A stretch of DNA of 39,691 nt, taken from the NCBI GenBank assembly GCA_028277665.1, contig JANQFU010000062.1, positions 1 through 39,691 of the forward strand, read 5' to 3'. Source of the DNA: Alphaproteobacteria bacterium (GTDB lineage: Bacteria; Pseudomonadota; Alphaproteobacteria; Micavibrionales; Micavibrionaceae). A model generated the notes under the pieces. That model was not told the origin of the DNA, did no database searches, and worked only from the letters and a program-made list of their open reading frames with translations. Of this stretch, positions 14,246-39,665 are shown piece after piece (the stretch's first letter is position 1; each line of letters starts with the position of its first letter). The position numbers were made by a program, and so were the translations under genes.

Positions 14246-14314
14246 TGAATCGCGAAGACACAAAGACGCGAAGAGATTTGCGGAAACTTCGCGGCTTCGC
14301 GCCTTCGCGATTCA
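14246..14314. repeat. palindromic element built of 8-nt GCGCGAAG-like units
   Basis: The left arm 14246-14273 starts TGAATCGCGAAG and continues with ACACAAAG and ACGCGAAG. The right arm 14287-14314 ends CTTCGCGATTCA. The reverse complement of the right arm matches the left at 24 of 28 positions, and the outer 12 bp are perfect; the loop is 13 nt. Each arm is three 8-nt units ending in AAG. It lies in the 231-nt recO-parC gap, about 70 nt upstream of parC. The same gap holds an imperfect hairpin at about 14168-14205 (GCCCTT...GAGGGGC) that may end recO transcription. Confidence 0.7.
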
Positions 14315-14383: not shown

Positions 14384-16621
14384 ATGAGTAACGATATAGT
14401 TGTGCCGGCGCATTCAGTCCTTGATCAGCCGATGAATGATCTGCTGTCGGAGCGGTATTTGTCTTACGCGCTTTCGACGATTATGCAGAGGTCTTTGCCG
14501 GATGTGCGCGACGGTATGAAGCCGGTTCACCGGCGTCTTCTTTTTGCGATGTCCCAGTTACAGCTTCGCCCGGATACGTCGCCGAAGAAATGTGCGCGGG
14601 TTGTCGGGGATGTGATCGGTAAGTTTCACCCGCACGGGGATCAGGCCGTTTATGACGCGATGGTGCGGCTCGCGCAGGATTTTGCGGTGCGGTATCCGCT
14701 TGTGGACGGGCAGGGGAATTTCGGGAATATCGACGGCGATAACGCGGCGGCGATGCGGTATACCGAGGCGCGGCTGACGGATGTCGCGTTGCTGCTTTTG
14801 GAAGGGATCGACGAGGATGCCGTCGATTTCCGCCCGACTTATGACGGCGATTCTCTTGAACCTGTCGTCCTTCCGGCGAATTTTCCCAATCTTCTGGCGA
14901 ACGGGTCATCCGGGATCGCCGTCGGGATGGCGACGAATATTCCGCCGCATAACGTGGCCGAGCTTTGCGCGGCGATGGAGATGATGCTTGCGCGCGATGT
15001 TGCGGTTGCAGATCTTATGGACGTCGTTCAGGGGCCTGATTTTCCGACCGGCGGGGTGGTTGTCGACGACCGGGCGACGATGTTGTCGGCTTATGAAACT
15101 GGCCGGGGGAGCTTCCGCGTGCGGGCGCGGTGGGCGCGGGAAGACCTGAAACAGGGGCAATATCAGATTGTCGTGACGGAGATTCCCTATCAGGTTCAAA
15201 AAGCCCGGCTTGTCGAGAAAATCGCGGAGTTGATCCAGAATCGCAAATTGCCGATGCTGGAGGATGTGCGGGACGAAAGCGCCGAAGATGTGCGTCTGGT
15301 TCTGATCCCGAAAAGCCGCAATATTGATCCGAATCTGCTTATGGAGGCCTTGTTTCGGCATACGGATCTTGAATCCCGTTTTTCCTTGAATATGAACGTT
15401 CTGGACGGCGGCCTTTTGCCGAAGGTTATGGATCTCAAAGAGGTTCTGCGCGCCTTTCTTGACCATCGTCAGGTTGTGCTTCAACGCCGATCCGCGCACC
15501 GTCTGGAAAAGGTTCTGCACCGTCTCGAAATTCTGGACGGATATCTGATTGTTTATCTCAATATCGATGAGGTGATCCGGATCGTGCGGGAGGAAGATCA
15601 TCCGAAAGAGGCGTTGATTCGGACGTTCGGTTTGACGGACGTTCAGGCCGAGGCCGTTTTGAATATGCGCCTGCGCTCTTTGCGTAAACTTGAGGAAATG
15701 GAGATCCGGCAGGAGCACGACAAATTATCGGCCGAGCGGGATGCGCTTGAGGCCTTGCTGGCCTCAGAGACCCGCCAATGGGCCGAAATCAAGAAGCAGA
15801 TTGGGGCACTCAAGAAAATGTTCGGGCCGGATACGCCGCTTGGGGGGCGCCGGACGACGTTTTCCGAAGCGCCGAAAATGCTGGATTCCGTCGATCTGAG
15901 CGAGGCGATGATCGAGAAGGAGCCTGTGACGGTGGTTCTCTCATCCAAGGGCTGGATCCGGGCCATGAAAGGGCACGGTCTGAATGCGAAGGATTTCAAA
16001 TACAAGGACGGAGATCGCGAGCGCTTTGTTTTTGAGGCGCAGACGACTGACAAGCTCCTTCTTTTTGCAACGAACGGGCGGATGTTTACGGTCGGCTGTG
16101 ACAAGCTGCCTTCCGGGCGCGGATTCGGCGAGCCGGTCCGCTTGATGATCGATTTGCCGAACGATACGGATATCACGGCGCTCGAAATTTATCAGGAGGG
16201 GACGCGCTTCCTGCTGGCCTCTGATGAAGGGCGCGGATTTATCGCCAAGGCCGAGGATCTGTTTGCCCAGACGAAGAGCGGTCGGCAGGCCTTGAACGTG
16301 GACGGCAAGGCCGAGGCGGCGTTCTGCGTCCGGGTTCATGCGCATGACGATATGGTTGCCGTTGTCGGGAAGAACCGCAAACTGCTTGTTTTCGCTCTCG
16401 ACGAGATGCCGGAGATGGGGCGCGGGAAGGGTGTGATTCTGCAGAAATACAAGGATGGCGGGTTGTCGGATGTGAAGACGTTCCGTGGTGAGGAGGGGCT
16501 GCGCTTCCGCTACGGGAGCGGAGAGCGCGTTCTGGACGATCTGACGGGCTGGCTCGGGAAGCGGGCGCAGGCCGGAAAAATGCCGCCGAACGGCTTTCCG
16601 CGAAACAACCGGTTCGAGTAA
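14384..16621 (+). CDS. parC: DNA topoisomerase IV subunit A
   Basis: Breakage-rejoining subunit of topoisomerase IV, which decatenates daughter chromosomes. It has 745 residues. The winged-helix/tower core includes [33 protein letters not shown] (quinolone-determining region), and the active-site tyrosine in [10 protein letters not shown]. The C-terminal beta-pinwheel is shorter than in GyrA and lacks a GyrA box (QRRGGKG-type), supporting ParC over GyrA. Alphaproteobacterial ParC proteins are of this size. parE is not in the window. The ATG at 14384 follows GGGAAG. It converges with yajC, with 24 nt between the stops. Confidence 0.94.
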
Positions 16622-17120: not shown

Positions 17121-17996
17121 ATGGGCGATCGTCGAAAAAATATGCTGGATGTGCTGGAGCGGATTGCTTTCGCGCTAGAGGGTGGGGAAGCTGCGTCTCC
17201 TGTGGACTGGACGCAGGCCGATCTGTGGGTTTGGCAGGGGGCGTTGCGCGGTTTGAAGGCTGTGTCGTCGACGCATGTTCTGCCTTTGGATGCCCTGGTC
17301 GGGCTGGAGCAGCAGCGCGAGATCCTTCTTCGGAATACGCGGCAGTTTGCGGCCGGATTGCCTGCGAATAATGCGCTCTTGTGGGGCGCGCGCGGCACGG
17401 GGAAAAGTTCTCTCGTCAAGGCGGTGCACGCGGCTGTTGTCAAGGATCCGGGCGCGCCGTTGGCTCTTATCGAGATTTACCGGGAGGATTTGCGCGATCT
17501 TCCGGTTTTGCTGGATCTTTTGCGTGCGGGGGCTGCGCAAGGTCGGCGGTTTTTGTTGTTCTGTGACGATCTGACTTTCGAGACCCGGGACGACGATTAT
17601 AAATTTCTCAAGAGCCTGCTCGAGGGCGGGGTTGAGAGCGCGCCTGAAAATGTCTTGTTTTACGCGACGTCGAACCGCCGGCATCTCGTGCCGCGCAGCA
17701 TGACCGAGAATGAACAGCGCACGGCAATTCATCCCGGTGAAGCCGTTGAGGAATCTGTTTCGTTATCGGACCGGTTCGGGATCTGGCTCGGGTTTCATCC
17801 CTGCGATCAGGCGACGTATCTTGAGATGGTGCGGGGATATGCTGATTATTTTTCCCTGAAGACGCGCGGTGAGGCTCTCGAGCGGGAGGCTCTTCAATGG
17901 GCGGCGGCGCGCGGGGCGCGATCCGGCCGCGTCGCCTGGCAATTCATTCAGGATCTCCGCGGCCGGGAAGGCGGCGACGGAGTGGAGGTTACATAA
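17121..17996 (+). CDS. DUF815 P-loop ATPase
   Basis: AAA-type ATP-binding protein of about 291 residues. The Walker A sequence LLWGARGTGKSSLVKA begins near residue 90, the Walker B-like FLLFCDDLTFE near 151, and a sensor-1-like LFYATSNRRHL near 185. The segment after Walker B (DDYKFLKSLLEGG) and the SLSDRFGIWLGF motif are DUF815 (PF05673) hallmarks. The cellular role is unknown. The frame is open to 17070, but MGDRRKN at 17121 lies 11 nt after AAGAGAG and matches the usual N-terminus; 17142 is another possibility. Its last 8 nt overlap the convergent LysM/M23 gene. Confidence 0.85.
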   Translation: MGDRRKNMLDVLERIAFALEGGEAASPVDWTQADLWVWQGALRGLKAVSSTHVLPLDALVGLEQQREILLRNTRQFAAGLPANNALLWGARGTGKSSLVKAVHAAVVKDPGAPLALIEIYREDLRDLPVLLDLLRAGAAQGRRFLLFCDDLTFETRDDDYKFLKSLLEGGVESAPENVLFYATSNRRHLVPRSMTENEQRTAIHPGEAVEESVSLSDRFGIWLGFHPCDQATYLEMVRGYADYFSLKTRGEALEREALQWAAARGARSGRVAWQFIQDLRGREGGDGVEVT

Positions 17997-18894
17997 ATTT
18001 CGCCGGGTTCAGGGCGCTTGTGCCGCGGCGGACTTCGAAATGGAGTTGCGGGCGGTCGGCGGATCCGGTCATCCCGACCGTGCCGATTCTCTCTCCCCGG
18101 TTGACGGTCTGCCCCTTGGCGACTGTGATCGTGTCCATGTGGCCGTAAGCGGTCATCCACCGGTCGGCGTGCCGGATGAGCACAAGATTCCCAAAGCCCC
18201 GCAATTGCGATCCGGCATAGACGACAACGCCGTTTTCGGCGGCGTTGATCCGTGCGCCCTTGTTTGCGGCGATGTTGATCCCGTCGTTATGCAGACCTCC
18301 CTCTTTCGGGCCGAAAGAGGAGATGATTCTCCCCGGAACCGGTTTTAAAAATTTACTTGATGATCGTGGCGGAGGAGATTGCGATGTCGTACTTTTTAAG
18401 GTTTGTGTCGGCTTGCGCGGCGGGGTTGTCTTGTATGATGGGGCCGGGCCGGGGGCGGCTTTGGTCTGTGCTTTTGCTGTTTGCGCCGGCGCGGGAGCTG
18501 TTCGTCCGGGTGCGGGCATGCGCAGTTCCTGACCGGGGCTCAGGACGTAGGGGGCGGAGAGCCTGTTTAACCGGGCGATATCGTTCGTTCCGACATCGAA
18601 AATTCGCGAGATTCCATAGAGTGTATCGCCGGGTCTGACTTTATAGCTGCGCGGCGGGGGAAGGCGCAGGCGTTCGCCGACATCCAGAGTGAAGGGCGGG
18701 CGGAGTTTGTTTACACGGATGATGTCCTGCATCGGCAGGGCGTAGTGTTTTGAAATGCGCCAGAGGTTTTCGTTTCTGGAAACCGTATGAATTCCGGCAC
18801 TTCCCGGGCCGTCGCTGTGTCCGTAGAGTGTGACGGGGGCGGGGTGGCTTGTTTTTTCCGGGATGCAGGCGGATGTGATGAAAAGGCAGAACAT
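17989..18894 (-). CDS. LysM/M23 peptidase-family lipoprotein (NlpD/EnvC-like)
   Basis: Envelope protein with two LysM domains (IHTVSRNENLWRISKHYALP and YKVRPGDTLYGISRIFDV), a proline/alanine/threonine-rich linker, and a C-terminal M23 LytM domain (GRIISSFG, HNDGINIAA, YGHMDTI, LHFEVRRG). The first zinc-ligand motif, usually HxGxD, reads HNDGIN, so the domain may be catalytically inactive, as in NlpD-type amidase activators. The first in-frame ATG (18894) leaves only nine residues before the lipobox cysteine in ITSAC and has no ribosome site. The codons just upstream (KKRGNKKGILKTLYL) look like the missing signal-peptide start. The frame continues through a palindromic repeat to an ATG at 19116 next to the pcm stop. 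The true start is unresolved. Confidence 0.82.
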   Translation of the reverse strand: MFCLFITSACIPEKTSHPAPVTLYGHSDGPGSAGIHTVSRNENLWRISKHYALPMQDIIRVNKLRPPFTLDVGERLRLPPPRSYKVRPGDTLYGISRIFDVGTNDIARLNRLSAPYVLSPGQELRMPAPGRTAPAPAQTAKAQTKAAPGPAPSYKTTPPRKPTQTLKSTTSQSPPPRSSSKFLKPVPGRIISSFGPKEGGLHNDGINIAANKGARINAAENGVVVYAGSQLRGFGNLVLIRHADRWMTAYGHMDTITVAKGQTVNRGERIGTVGMTGSADRPQLHFEVRRGTSALNPAKFM

Positions 18895-18941
18895 TAAATA
18901 TAGAGTTTTTAGGATGCCCTTTTTGTTCCCCCTTTTTTTGA

Positions 18942-18980
18942 TTTTAAACCGCAGAGGCGCAGAGAACGCAGAGTTTAAAA
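18942..18980. repeat. 8-nt-unit repeat flanked by 8-bp inverted repeats
   Basis: CCGCAGAG, GCGCAGAG and AACGCAGAG stand in tandem at 18949-18973. They are bracketed by TTTTAAAC (18942-18949) and its exact complement GTTTAAAA (18973-18980). The octamer period and GCGCRRAG core resemble the 14246-14314 element. It lies directly against the signal-peptide codons of the LysM/M23 gene. Confidence 0.65.
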
Positions 18981-18981
18981 A

Positions 18982-19113
18982 AGAACCTCTGCAAAAGCCC
19001 TCTTTTACACAGACATCGTCATTCCCGCGAAAGCGGGAATCTTTTAAAAACAAATAGCTGAAAGATCCCCGCCTTCGCGGGGATGACAAGAAAGAGGAAT
19101 TTGCAGAGGTTCT
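18982..19113. repeat. nested palindromic element (REP-like pair inside a longer inverted repeat)
   Basis: Outer arms: AGAACCTCTGCAAA at 18982-18995 is mirrored by the end of the element at 19091-19113. Inner arms: a unit starting GTCATTCCCGCGAAAGC at 19018-19044 and an inverted unit ending GCGGGGATGAC at 19061-19087. Each inner unit is itself a hairpin (ATTCCC-GCGAAAGC-GGGAAT; ATCCCC-GCCTTCGC-GGGGAT). The whole 132-bp block is therefore a head-to-head repeat pair within a larger palindrome, between pcm and the LysM/M23 gene. It resembles REP/BIME or MITE-type dispersed repeats; no transposase is present. Confidence 0.8.
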
Positions 19114-19117
19114 CATA

Positions 19118-19807
19118 TCAGCTGTTTTTATCTGTTCCAGTTCTGTGCTTATCTTCATTATACCGCGCAATATCCGGCAATAAAGGGACAAATCGAACGG
19201 GGAGGAGATCCCGGACGGCGATGGTGTCGTCTGATTCGCGTTTGTAGCGTTTGAGCATCTGTTTGCCTGGCGGGCCGACGGGGATAATCATCAGGCCGCC
19301 GGGTTTGATCTGGTCGATCAGGGCTTGCGGCGGTTTTTCGAGGGCGGCGGCGGTCACGATGATCTTGTCGAAGGGGGCCTGTTCCGGCCAGCCGCGCATG
19401 CCGTCACCGCAGAGCGTCGTGATGTTGTGCAGGCGCAGCGCGTCGAAATGTTGTTGCGCAAGCTCGTATAGCGGGCGGTGCCGTTCGATCGTGTAGAGGC
19501 GGCGGCAGAGCTTTGCCAGAATGGCGGCCTGATAGCCGCAGCCTGTGCCGATTTCCAGGACTTTGTCGCGGTCCGAGAGGGCGAGGGCCTGCGTCATCGT
19601 CGCGACGACGTAAGGCTGGCTGATTGTCTGGCCGAGGCCGATCGGCAGGGCGATGTCGTCATAGGCCTGACTTTGCAGGGATTGGGGGATAAACATGGCC
19701 CGGGGAACGCGCTCCATTGCGCTGAGGACTCGAGTATCCGTGATTCCCGCGTTGCGGAGCTTCATGAGAAGCTCAATGAGGCGCGTGTCCGGTTCATATG
19801 GGGTCAT
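19118..19807 (-). CDS. pcm: protein-L-isoaspartate O-methyltransferase
   Basis: Repairs isomerised aspartyl residues by methylating L-isoaspartate with S-adenosylmethionine. It has about 229 residues from MTPYEPDTR. Motifs: VPRAMFIP and ALPIGLGQTISQPYVVA (substrate-side), SAM-binding VLEIGTGCGYQAAIL, and FDKIIVTAAA. The C-terminus runs longer than E. coli Pcm. Start alternatives at 19819 and 19849 would overlap the end of serS; the 19807 start fits the family best, but 19819 is close. The gene follows serS closely and precedes the repeat block. In many proteobacteria pcm neighbours an M23/LysM lipoprotein gene (nlpD), as here. Confidence 0.9.
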   Translation of the reverse strand: MTPYEPDTRLIELLMKLRNAGITDTRVLSAMERVPRAMFIPQSLQSQAYDDIALPIGLGQTISQPYVVATMTQALALSDRDKVLEIGTGCGYQAAILAKLCRRLYTIERHRPLYELAQQHFDALRLHNITTLCGDGMRGWPEQAPFDKIIVTAAALEKPPQALIDQIKPGGLMIIPVGPPGKQMLKRYKRESDDTIAVRDLLPVRFVPLLPDIARYNEDKHRTGTDKNS

Positions 19808-19823
19808 GCTTGTCCACATCCGG

Positions 19824-21125
19824 TTACTGCGTATAGGCCGGGGTTTCAAGCGGCATCAGTTTTTTCAGACCGCCCATGTAAGGCTGTAGTGCCTCCGGAA
19901 TAAAGACGCCGTCGTCCGAAGGATCGTGATAATTCTCGAGAACGGCGACCAGTGCCCGGCCGACAGCGAGGCCCGATCCGTTGAGCGTGTGGACGGGGCG
20001 CGTGTCTTTTTCGCCCTTTGCCCGGCAGCGGGCTTTCATGCGGCGGGCCTGAAAATCCCAGCAATTGGAGCAGCTTGAAATTTCCCGGTAGCAGTTTTGT
20101 CCCGGCAGCCAGACCTCAATGTCATAGGTTTTGCGGGCGCAAAATCCGGTGTCGCCCGAACACAGGACGATGGTCCGGAAAGCCAGGCCGAGGCGTTTGA
20201 GGATGTCTTCCGCGCAGCTTGTCATACGTTCATGTTCTTCTTCGCTCTGGTCCGGGGTTGTGATGCTGACCATTTCGACTTTGTAGAACTGGTGCTGGCG
20301 GATCATGCCGCGCGTATCTTTTCCTGCGGCACCGGCTTCCGAACGGAAGCAGGGCGTGAAGGCCGTGACGCGCAGCGGCAGGTCGTCTTCGCTTTGAATG
20401 GCCTCGGCGACAATGTTGGTTAGCGGGACTTCGGCGGTGGGGACGAGCCAGTGTCCCGTTGTCGTGCGGAAGAGGTCTTCCGAGAATTTCGGGAGCTGTC
20501 CCGTGCCGAATGCCGCGTTGTCGCGGACGAGCAGCGGCGGGGAGACTTCCCTGTAGCCGTGCTCTCCTGTCTGGATGTCGAGCATGAGCTGTGCGATGGC
20601 GCGTTCGAGACGGGCGAGCCCCGAATGCATCAGGACGAACCGGGCTCCTGAAAGTTTGGCTGCGACCGGAAAATCCATCATTCCAAGGCCTTCGCCGATT
20701 GCGACGTGATCCGGGTGATCCTGATCCGGGCCTTTTTGCGGCGTACCGACGCGGCGCAGCTCAACGTTTGCGCTTTCGTCCGGGCCGTCGGGAACGTCGT
20801 CCGCCAGTCTGTTGGGCAGGGATGAGAGAATGGCGTCGAGGTCTTCGGCGGTTTTGGATTCCCGGGCTTCGAGGTCTGTCAGTTGTGTTTTGAGGGTTGC
20901 GACCTGATCCATCAGGTCTTGTGTGTCCTGGCCTTTGGATTTGCGCTGTCCGATCTCTTTGGAGACTGTGTTGCGCTTTTGCTGGAGGTCCTGCATTTCC
21001 GTTTGCAGGGCGCGGCGTTCTTCATCGAGCGCAAGAATTTGCGGTGTTTGTGCGGACAGGCCCCGGCGTGCCCAGTTTTTGTCAAAATCTTCCGGTGCGT
21101 TTCGTATTGCTTTGAGATCGAACAT
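19824..21125 (-). CDS. serS: seryl-tRNA synthetase
   Basis: Class II aminoacyl-tRNA synthetase charging tRNA-Ser (and tRNA-Sec where present). It has 433 residues. The N-terminal [18 protein letters not shown] leads into the long antiparallel coiled coil (about residues 30-105) that grips the tRNA long arm. The catalytic core shows motif 2 ([21 protein letters not shown]), ending in the conserved KVEM, and motif 3 near the C-terminus ([18 protein letters not shown]). The start at 21125 is the family position. It is the first gene of a serS-pcm-LysM/M23 series and is divergent from the N-formylglutamate amidohydrolase gene. Confidence 0.96.
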
Positions 21126-37219: not shown

Positions 37220-37288
37220 GTCATTCCCGCGAAGGCGGGAATCTTTATGGAAGAGGCCCCAGAAGATCCCCGCTTCCGCGGGGATGAC
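37220..37288. repeat. REP-like inverted pair between response regulator and kinase
   Basis: Unit 1 (37220-37246) begins GTCATTCCCGCGAAGGC and unit 2 (37265-37288) ends CCGCGGGGATGAC in inverted orientation. Each unit is itself a short hairpin. The pair is the same sequence family as the 19018-19087 units, here without the outer arms. It separates two genes expected to be co-transcribed and could form a stable RNA hairpin in their shared mRNA. Confidence 0.8.
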
Positions 37289-39640: not shown

Positions 39641-39665
39641 GTCATCCCGGCGAAAGCCGGGATCC
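39641..39665. repeat. single REP-like unit near the right edge
   Basis: GTCATCCCGGCGAAAGCCGG at 39641-39660, followed by GATCC, is a hairpin (ATCCCGG-CGAAAG-CCGGGAT) of the same general family as the two pairs above. An inverted partner may lie beyond the window. The rest of 39559-39691 shows nothing else I can name. Confidence 0.65.

Follow-up and report, generated by a model that had tools for sequence, protein, structure and literature searches.

Two repeat families adjoin between pcm and nlpD in an alphaproteobacterial genome, and inverted arrays of the class seen there flank many GxxExxY genes elsewhere

The window analysed here, a stretch of 39,691 nucleotides taken at its full length, belongs to an alphaproteobacterial genome assembled into 114 contigs that total 2.27 Mb (hereafter, the host genome). 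At 18942-19113 it carries a repeat block, located between the stop of a gene that, from its sequence, we take to be pcm (protein-L-isoaspartate methyltransferase; 19118-19849) and a LysM and peptidase M23 gene, both neighbours being co-directional. The nearest named matches of the Pcm protein came from four MAGs (61-67% identity), one of them called Micavibrio. The features considered in this work are listed below.

14246-14314, no strand assigned: complete gene-less array hairpin with units CGCGAAGA/CACAAAGA; arms of 28 nt, 86% complementary, loop of 13 nt.
17989-18894, minus strand: LysM and peptidase M23 gene (NlpD/ActS/DipM-like), downstream neighbour of the block; the start at 18894 is inferred.
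18942-18980, no strand assigned: 8-bp inverted repeats TTTTAAAC/GTTTAAAA around the array (18942-18949 and 18973-18980), judged to be due to chance.
18947-18976, plus strand: array-type palindrome, left arm only, made up of AACC, three CGCAGAG units and TTT; the partner arm is absent at this locus.
18982-19113, no strand assigned: 132-bp element, outer arms around a REP dimer; the family consensus ends are TATAGGAACCTCTGCAAA ... TTTGCAGAGGTTCCTATA.
19018-19041, plus strand: left-hand CGTC-tagged REP of a heterodimer arranged head to head; its (C)GTC tag and AT..AT stem match the description in PMC3733652.
19064-19087, minus strand: CGTC-tagged REP, right member; match to the REP pattern.
19118-19849, minus strand: pcm-like gene, upstream neighbour of the block; aligned with its relatives.

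The block consists of an octamer array (18950-18973) that adjoins, after 8 bases, a palindrome (18982-19113) in which outer arms enclose a head-to-head REP pair. TRF assigned to the array a period of 8 and 2.8 copies, with the units CGCAGAGG, CGCAGAGAA and CGCAGAG. The outer arms (18982-18995 and 19100-19113, 14 nt) show a complementarity of 100%, and the inner pair (19018-19044 and 19061-19087, 27 nt) one of 89%, either half of this pair also forming its own hairpin. The coordinates, the TRF result and the complementarity values agree with the initial annotation, which described within 172 bp an octamer array and a nested 132-bp palindrome with outer arms and an inner head-to-head REP pair. 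The predicted RNA fold of the block has a z of -10.7, and none of 200 shuffles was equally good; a search of Rfam with the window gave no match. The REP pattern occurs five times in the 39,691-nt window, against 0.06 expected; a second REP dimer lies at 37220-37288 and a further REP at 39641-39664, near the contig end. In many contigs of the assembly the same REP lies within approximately 100 bases of the first base, so these repeats are the probable cause of the breaks in the assembly. The M23 reading frame stays open back through the repeats (17989-19191), which would create an artefactual N-terminus, SSPRRRGSFSYLFLKDSRFRGNDD, likely to mislead automatic annotation.

The palindrome at 18982-19113 is a multi-copy element of the host genome. 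When this genome was searched with the block, 139 candidate places emerged, of which 40 were scored and yielded 70 matches, so that the copy number is a lower bound; when the 40 places were sorted by eye, at least part of the outer arm was present in 24 and the inner pair alone in 16. The arm motif has 72 sites in the host genome, compared with nine for the reversed control, and the REP pattern 314 matches, compared with none for the pattern read backwards. The layout of the family is TATAGGAACCTCTGCAAAAGCC ... REP, 22 bases, REP ... TTTGCAGAGGTTCCTATA; TA or TATA stands at both ends of many copies and is part of the family consensus, although in the window copy TATA has drifted at both ends. 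Since one locus (L142) has both outer arms but no inner pair, and other places have the inner pair alone, the outer and inner parts are separable. The REPs carry an unpaired CGTC/TGTC tag, a stem that starts with AT and a loop of 4-5 bases, occur predominantly as head-to-head dimers and are present in high copy number, as expected for CGTC REPs; the 132-bp family is multi-copy, has terminal inverted repeats and contains no ORF, as expected for a MITE. The 132-bp element is MITE-like and consists of a CGTC-REP heterodimer enclosed by TATAGGAACC/GGTTCCTATA arms. Among the arm-motif sites of the host genome we saw no parent insertion sequence with TATAGGAACC ends, and no pairing of sites across a transposase gene. 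At four loci (L005, L018, L025, L029) a 132-bp element abuts another repeat, TATTCTTATYGGAAATCACTA, which suggests still another nested family. Near contig ends (L137, L138, L149, L135), a different repeat rich in CCGGGA palindromes splits the REP part of arm-bearing elements.

Nested arrangements of this kind have precedents. In Di Nocera 2013 (PMC3733652), CGTC REPs are reported to lack a dedicated transposase, family CGTC-1 is recorded in Micavibrio aeruginosavorus, and REP dimers are described inside longer palindromes, namely GTAG-15 within TATAGGA...TCCTATA in Anabaena variabilis and CGTC-1 within 41-bp palindromes in Halothiobacillus neapolitanus. The window pair shares with the CGTC dimers of that work the tag, the 8-bp stem starting with AT, the 4-base loop and the head-to-head heterodimer, whereas the TATAGGAACCTCTGCAAA outer arms and the array arms are not described for this lineage in the available text (PMC3733652). 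The A. variabilis palindrome has the same nested layout and also starts with TATAGGA and ends with TCCTATA; it differs in arm sequence and in its GTAG dimer, that of the window element being CGTC (PMC3733652). The same source found no target palindromes without REPs in A. variabilis or H. neapolitanus, whereas the host genome has such an outer pair without a dimer at L142.

The octamer array, for its part, is one arm of a larger inverted pair. The search for the array pattern found 16 arrays in the host genome and one in the control. The majority are paired in inverted orientation at a distance of 50-170 bases, with REPs of three types between the arms; a single recognisable arm is present at L045 and in the window, only the other arm at L035, and a decayed partner at L034. 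A REP lies within 300 bp in all 11 array loci found by the pattern, where approximately 0.5 would be expected per such length by our own reckoning of one REP per ~7 kb. The array was detected in 8 of 58 genomes examined, and in relatives the inverted pairs have REPs, other filler or almost nothing between their arms, with a REP nearby in 7 of the 16 array loci fetched from them. The initial annotation had given the array 8-bp terminal inverted repeats of its own. These repeats, TTTTAAAC/GTTTAAAA, do exist, but an 8-bp repeat was present in only one of the 11 array loci, that of the window (2-6 bp in the others), so it is probably a chance product of A/T-rich flanks, and we rejected it as the end of the array. 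The window also contains a complete array hairpin, at 14246-14314, just upstream of a parC-like ORF that starts at 14384; its fold has a z of -4.4, and two further copies (L050 and L149, 94-95% identity, one of them ending at a contig end) are present in the host genome. Inverted arrays of 8-10-base units at both ends are present in this hairpin and absent from the block, which has one arm. We consider it probable that the window array is a half-decayed array element, that is, a repeat ending in inverted arrays of 8-10-base units. At L043, L044 and L050, array hairpins and CGAGC-type REPs lie within a repeat of ~300 bases that extends past the arrays and ends near CCCGACA/TGTCGGG.

Two separate families, which also occur apart, meet in the block, as the initial annotation had proposed. 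Of 58 genomes examined, the arm motif was found in the host genome alone and the array in eight; arrays are present without the 132-bp element at L042-L050, and the other two-armed 132-bp elements examined have no array alongside. The idea that the whole block moves as a single element, to which the 8-base spacing lends some appeal, is hardly credible, because the combination was not repeated among the 70 block matches (which refutes it for the host genome within the 40 scored places), other 132-bp copies have unrelated left flanks and the two motifs differ in the genomes that carry them. Inspection by eye of the pcm-nlpD junction of 19 relatives showed that it varies: an array hairpin alone was present in one (L162), a REP dimer alone in two (L159 and L169), a different downstream gene in two (L158 and L171) and neither element in 14. 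From the hairpin-only and REP-dimer-only junctions we concluded that the two families reach this site independently. The suggestion of a hot spot or of serial insertion thus holds, in that the junction takes up elements repeatedly, in other genera as well, and does not carry an identical block in all relatives; the parts were found separately both in the host genome and in its relatives. The block itself is an ordinary meeting of two repeat families.

In contrast, the REP transposase that had been put forward as the driver found no support. The inner pair has the architecture of a REPIN and REPs are numerous, but the sole Y1_Tnp gene found in the host genome is an IS200 tnpA with its C-terminal part in another frame, and the only REPs in the 6.5 kb around it are a pair ~600 bp away. 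The pair does not qualify as a REPIN, since no cognate RAYT flanked by the same REPs was found and the tag is CGTC where a GTAG-type tag is required. Among 58 relatives, 16 have Y1_Tnp, with no visible link to the arrays. A RAYT was rejected as the driver for the host genome, given that no intact Y1 gene was found among the 114 contigs, where a gene may have been missed; CGTC REPs also have no known cognate transposase according to PMC3733652. A RAYT-driven REPIN hot spot is accordingly a very improbable account of this junction.

The palindromes could instead be kept for an RNA function, serving between pcm and nlpD as terminators or as hairpins for mRNA processing. The strong fold of the block and the position of both families here between co-directional genes would suit such a role. 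However, in 15 aligned copies of the 132-bp family the covariation of pairs did not exceed that of shuffles, and hence there is no sign that selection keeps this palindrome; in addition, most relatives have a short, hairpin-free pcm-nlpD junction. We regard this explanation as improbable, if less so than a RAYT.

Extending the analysis beyond the window array led to genes that lie between inverted arrays. The GxxExxY family was searched for in 398 Pseudomonadota genomes and found in 65. For 82 loci, corresponding to the longer matches down to an E of 7e-33 (G074:C25, of comparable score, and shorter or partial matches were omitted), the 160 bases upstream of the gene were compared with the reverse complement of the 160 bases downstream. 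The threshold of 24 was the 99th percentile of displaced windows, whose maximum was 45. The flanks were inverted above 24 in 67 of the 82 loci and above 45 in 22; with a length filter, 66 of 81 GxxExxY loci passed, whereas only one each did so among 212 displaced windows and among 55 pcm loci of other genomes. Tandem structure (p <= 0.01) was detected in 34 of the 67 arms, always with a period of 8, 9 or 10. The RCAGAG unit of the window is present in 20 of the 67, and the unit varies among loci (CGCAGAGG, CACGAAGG, CACAAAGA, CACAGATGAA and others). Genomes reached through named records gave a similar picture, with 15 of 23 loci passing (23 of 27 were scored; L274, L284 and L298 were dropped as repeats of the earlier set and L293 was not located), among them members of Desulfobacteraceae, Methylobacter marinus, Methylotenera, Gallionella, KSB1 and Planctomycetaceae. 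Six of eight matches in plasmid records were examined and four passed, including Bacteroides finegoldii, Bernardetia and Gemmatirosa, so that Bacteroidota and Gemmatimonadota are represented. Inverted flanks above the threshold were absent in 15 of the 82 loci, and in 8 of 23 and 2 of 6 of the later sets.

In an alignment of 11 GxxExxY members, D78, K90, Q102 and Y106 are invariant and E88 is nearly so; we take these residues to be a RecB-type PD-(D/E)XK site, in keeping with the Pfam name PDDEXK_3. No solved structure matched GxxExxY convincingly, and viral contigs gave only two weak matches. At L181 the arrays bracket a GIY-YIG-type (T5orf172/MUG113) ORF (L181:303-926) together with a GxxExxY ORF, so that GxxExxY could be just one of several cargoes. 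In the host genome a single GxxExxY gene was found (C88:46035-46376); the inverted arrays on either side of it have another unit, CGGAG, and the gene is absent from all 11 CGCAGAG loci of this genome. The window array is therefore tied to GxxExxY by class and not by shared sequence, and no GxxExxY gene lies between arms in either window copy (the block array and the hairpin at 14246-14314). In the literature covered (subscription papers and preprints lay outside its scope), nothing relevant was found on the array unit strings, nor any paper that links array repeats to a nuclease-like gene or explains the short octamer arrays that are present intergenically in many genomes; in the passages that hold its name, GxxExxY/PF13366 receives a bare mention.

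A position upstream of trpC is shared by 21 of the 82 GxxExxY genes. In most cases this is the trpD-trpC junction of a single family (f45), which includes Mariprofundus and Zetaproteobacteria records. This junction was examined in 50 loci of f45, obtained from TrpC matches. It was empty in 21, where empty was called by the gap: 18 had a 4-base overlap of the genes and three had short gaps, possibly scars, of 7, 23 and 27 bp. Seven loci had a gene-less array hairpin of 85-136 bases and 17 an insert of gene size (451-882 bases), with arrays at the ends of most. Among these inserts, L320 counts as full from its size and arrays, although the gene motif was not found, and the arms of L331 and L319 match weakly. 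Of the remaining loci, L322 shows a gap of 126 bp but no arrays, and an upstream trpD is missing in L332, L335, L324 and L346. In a tree of TrpD with 46 rows, the empty and occupied states require at least eight changes (five forced by starred branches), compared with 15.2 in shuffles. The state of the insert is thus partly inherited and changes repeatedly; most of the changes could be losses. Within a locus the two arms were more alike than arms taken from different loci (mean 31.8, a value reached in none of 10,000 permutations). Even so, among 24 inserts there were only eight whose left arm found its best or equal-best match in the right arm of the same insert. These results show that at trpD-trpC the arrays delimit a discrete insert, the site being found empty, with a hairpin only or full, and we conclude that such arrays form the two ends of an insertion unit.

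The opposite arrangement deserves more weight than the alternatives discussed above. The arrays could be independent repeats, spreading alone or by a host enzyme, into whose hairpins GxxExxY and other genes insert, so that the array would be a target and not the end of an element. In line with this, gene-less hairpins are common (L173, L183, L186, L187, the seven at trpD-trpC and 14246-14314 in the window), the arrays at L181 enclose the GIY-YIG-type ORF as well, and in the host genome the loops hold REPs and no gene. On the other hand, 18 of the 21 empty trpD-trpC sites are tight 4-base overlaps in which no array remains, and the hairpin-only sites are grouped in one part of the tree beside a full site, a distribution that gene loss fits at least equally well. 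We consider arrays as targets to be possible but rather unlikely.

We favour the reading in which the arrays are element ends: the block is probably made of two unrelated palindromic elements placed end to end in the pcm-nlpD gap, of which the array element belongs to a class that carries GxxExxY. Intact array elements would have a GxxExxY gene with the conserved PD-(D/E)XK residues between the arrays, and shorter members would keep only the hairpin, those of the host genome holding REP dimers in the loop. The mobility of these elements and the role of the nuclease we infer from the arrangement of genes and arrays. The GxxExxY protein may nick or cut at the array hairpins, thereby moving the unit, or a host enzyme may act on the hairpin. 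Hairpins without the gene could move in trans or be remains, and the window array may be a decayed or gene-less derivative. REP dimers would insert into the hairpin loops, a route described in PMC3733652 for palindromes of other kinds. In the pcm-nlpD gap, the second element presumably landed beside or within the first, and the pcm-side arm would then have been lost. No clear target-site duplication was established.

Extending this reading to other bacteria, we propose, more tentatively and with slightly less than even confidence, that the common bacterial repeats of the CACAGAGG/CACGAAGG/CACAGATGAA type are the ends of an undescribed class of mobile elements, with a small RecB-like (PD-(D/E)XK) GxxExxY gene between inverted tandem arrays. 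The unit would drift among loci while the arms of one element stay matched, and hairpins that lack the gene, including the one at 14246-14314 of the window together with the half copy at 18950-18973, would represent non-autonomous derivatives distributed across several phyla. If the arrays do end a nuclease-carrying element, much unexplained intergenic sequence would gain an origin. The uncharacterised and widespread GxxExxY family would likewise gain a likely role, and the element could be tested in culturable hosts. It would also be a second type of gene travelling with palindromic repeats, beside the tyrosine transposases of REPtrons and TIRtrons.

Some known systems bear a partial resemblance to such an element. 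Homing endonuclease genes consist of a small nuclease gene as sole cargo, and both GIY-YIG and PD-(D/E)XK are homing nuclease folds. The array elements are alike in having a small nuclease gene as sole cargo, but they are intergenic, lack an intron or intein and bring their own inverted ends. In 23S rRNA intervening sequences, the ends form a stem. The Coxiella 23S rRNA intervening sequence with its S23p ORF is likewise a small selfish insert with a small ORF, although it sits in rRNA and its ORF is unrelated to GxxExxY (PMC4990558). REPtrons and TIRtrons, as presented in PMC3733652, follow the plan that we propose for the array elements, a gene flanked by inverted repeats plus gene-less copies across the genome; they carry an HUH tyrosine transposase, whereas the array elements have a PD-(D/E)XK family protein and tandem arrays whose unit varies by locus.

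Two further observations concern individual GxxExxY loci. At L189 the left array forms part of the reading frame, where it codes for the N-terminal end of the protein. In the host genome and in a Micavibrio MAG (L218 and L278), the GxxExxY gene adjoins a lipoyl-domain (E2-like) gene, and the arms are of a similar CGGAG type.
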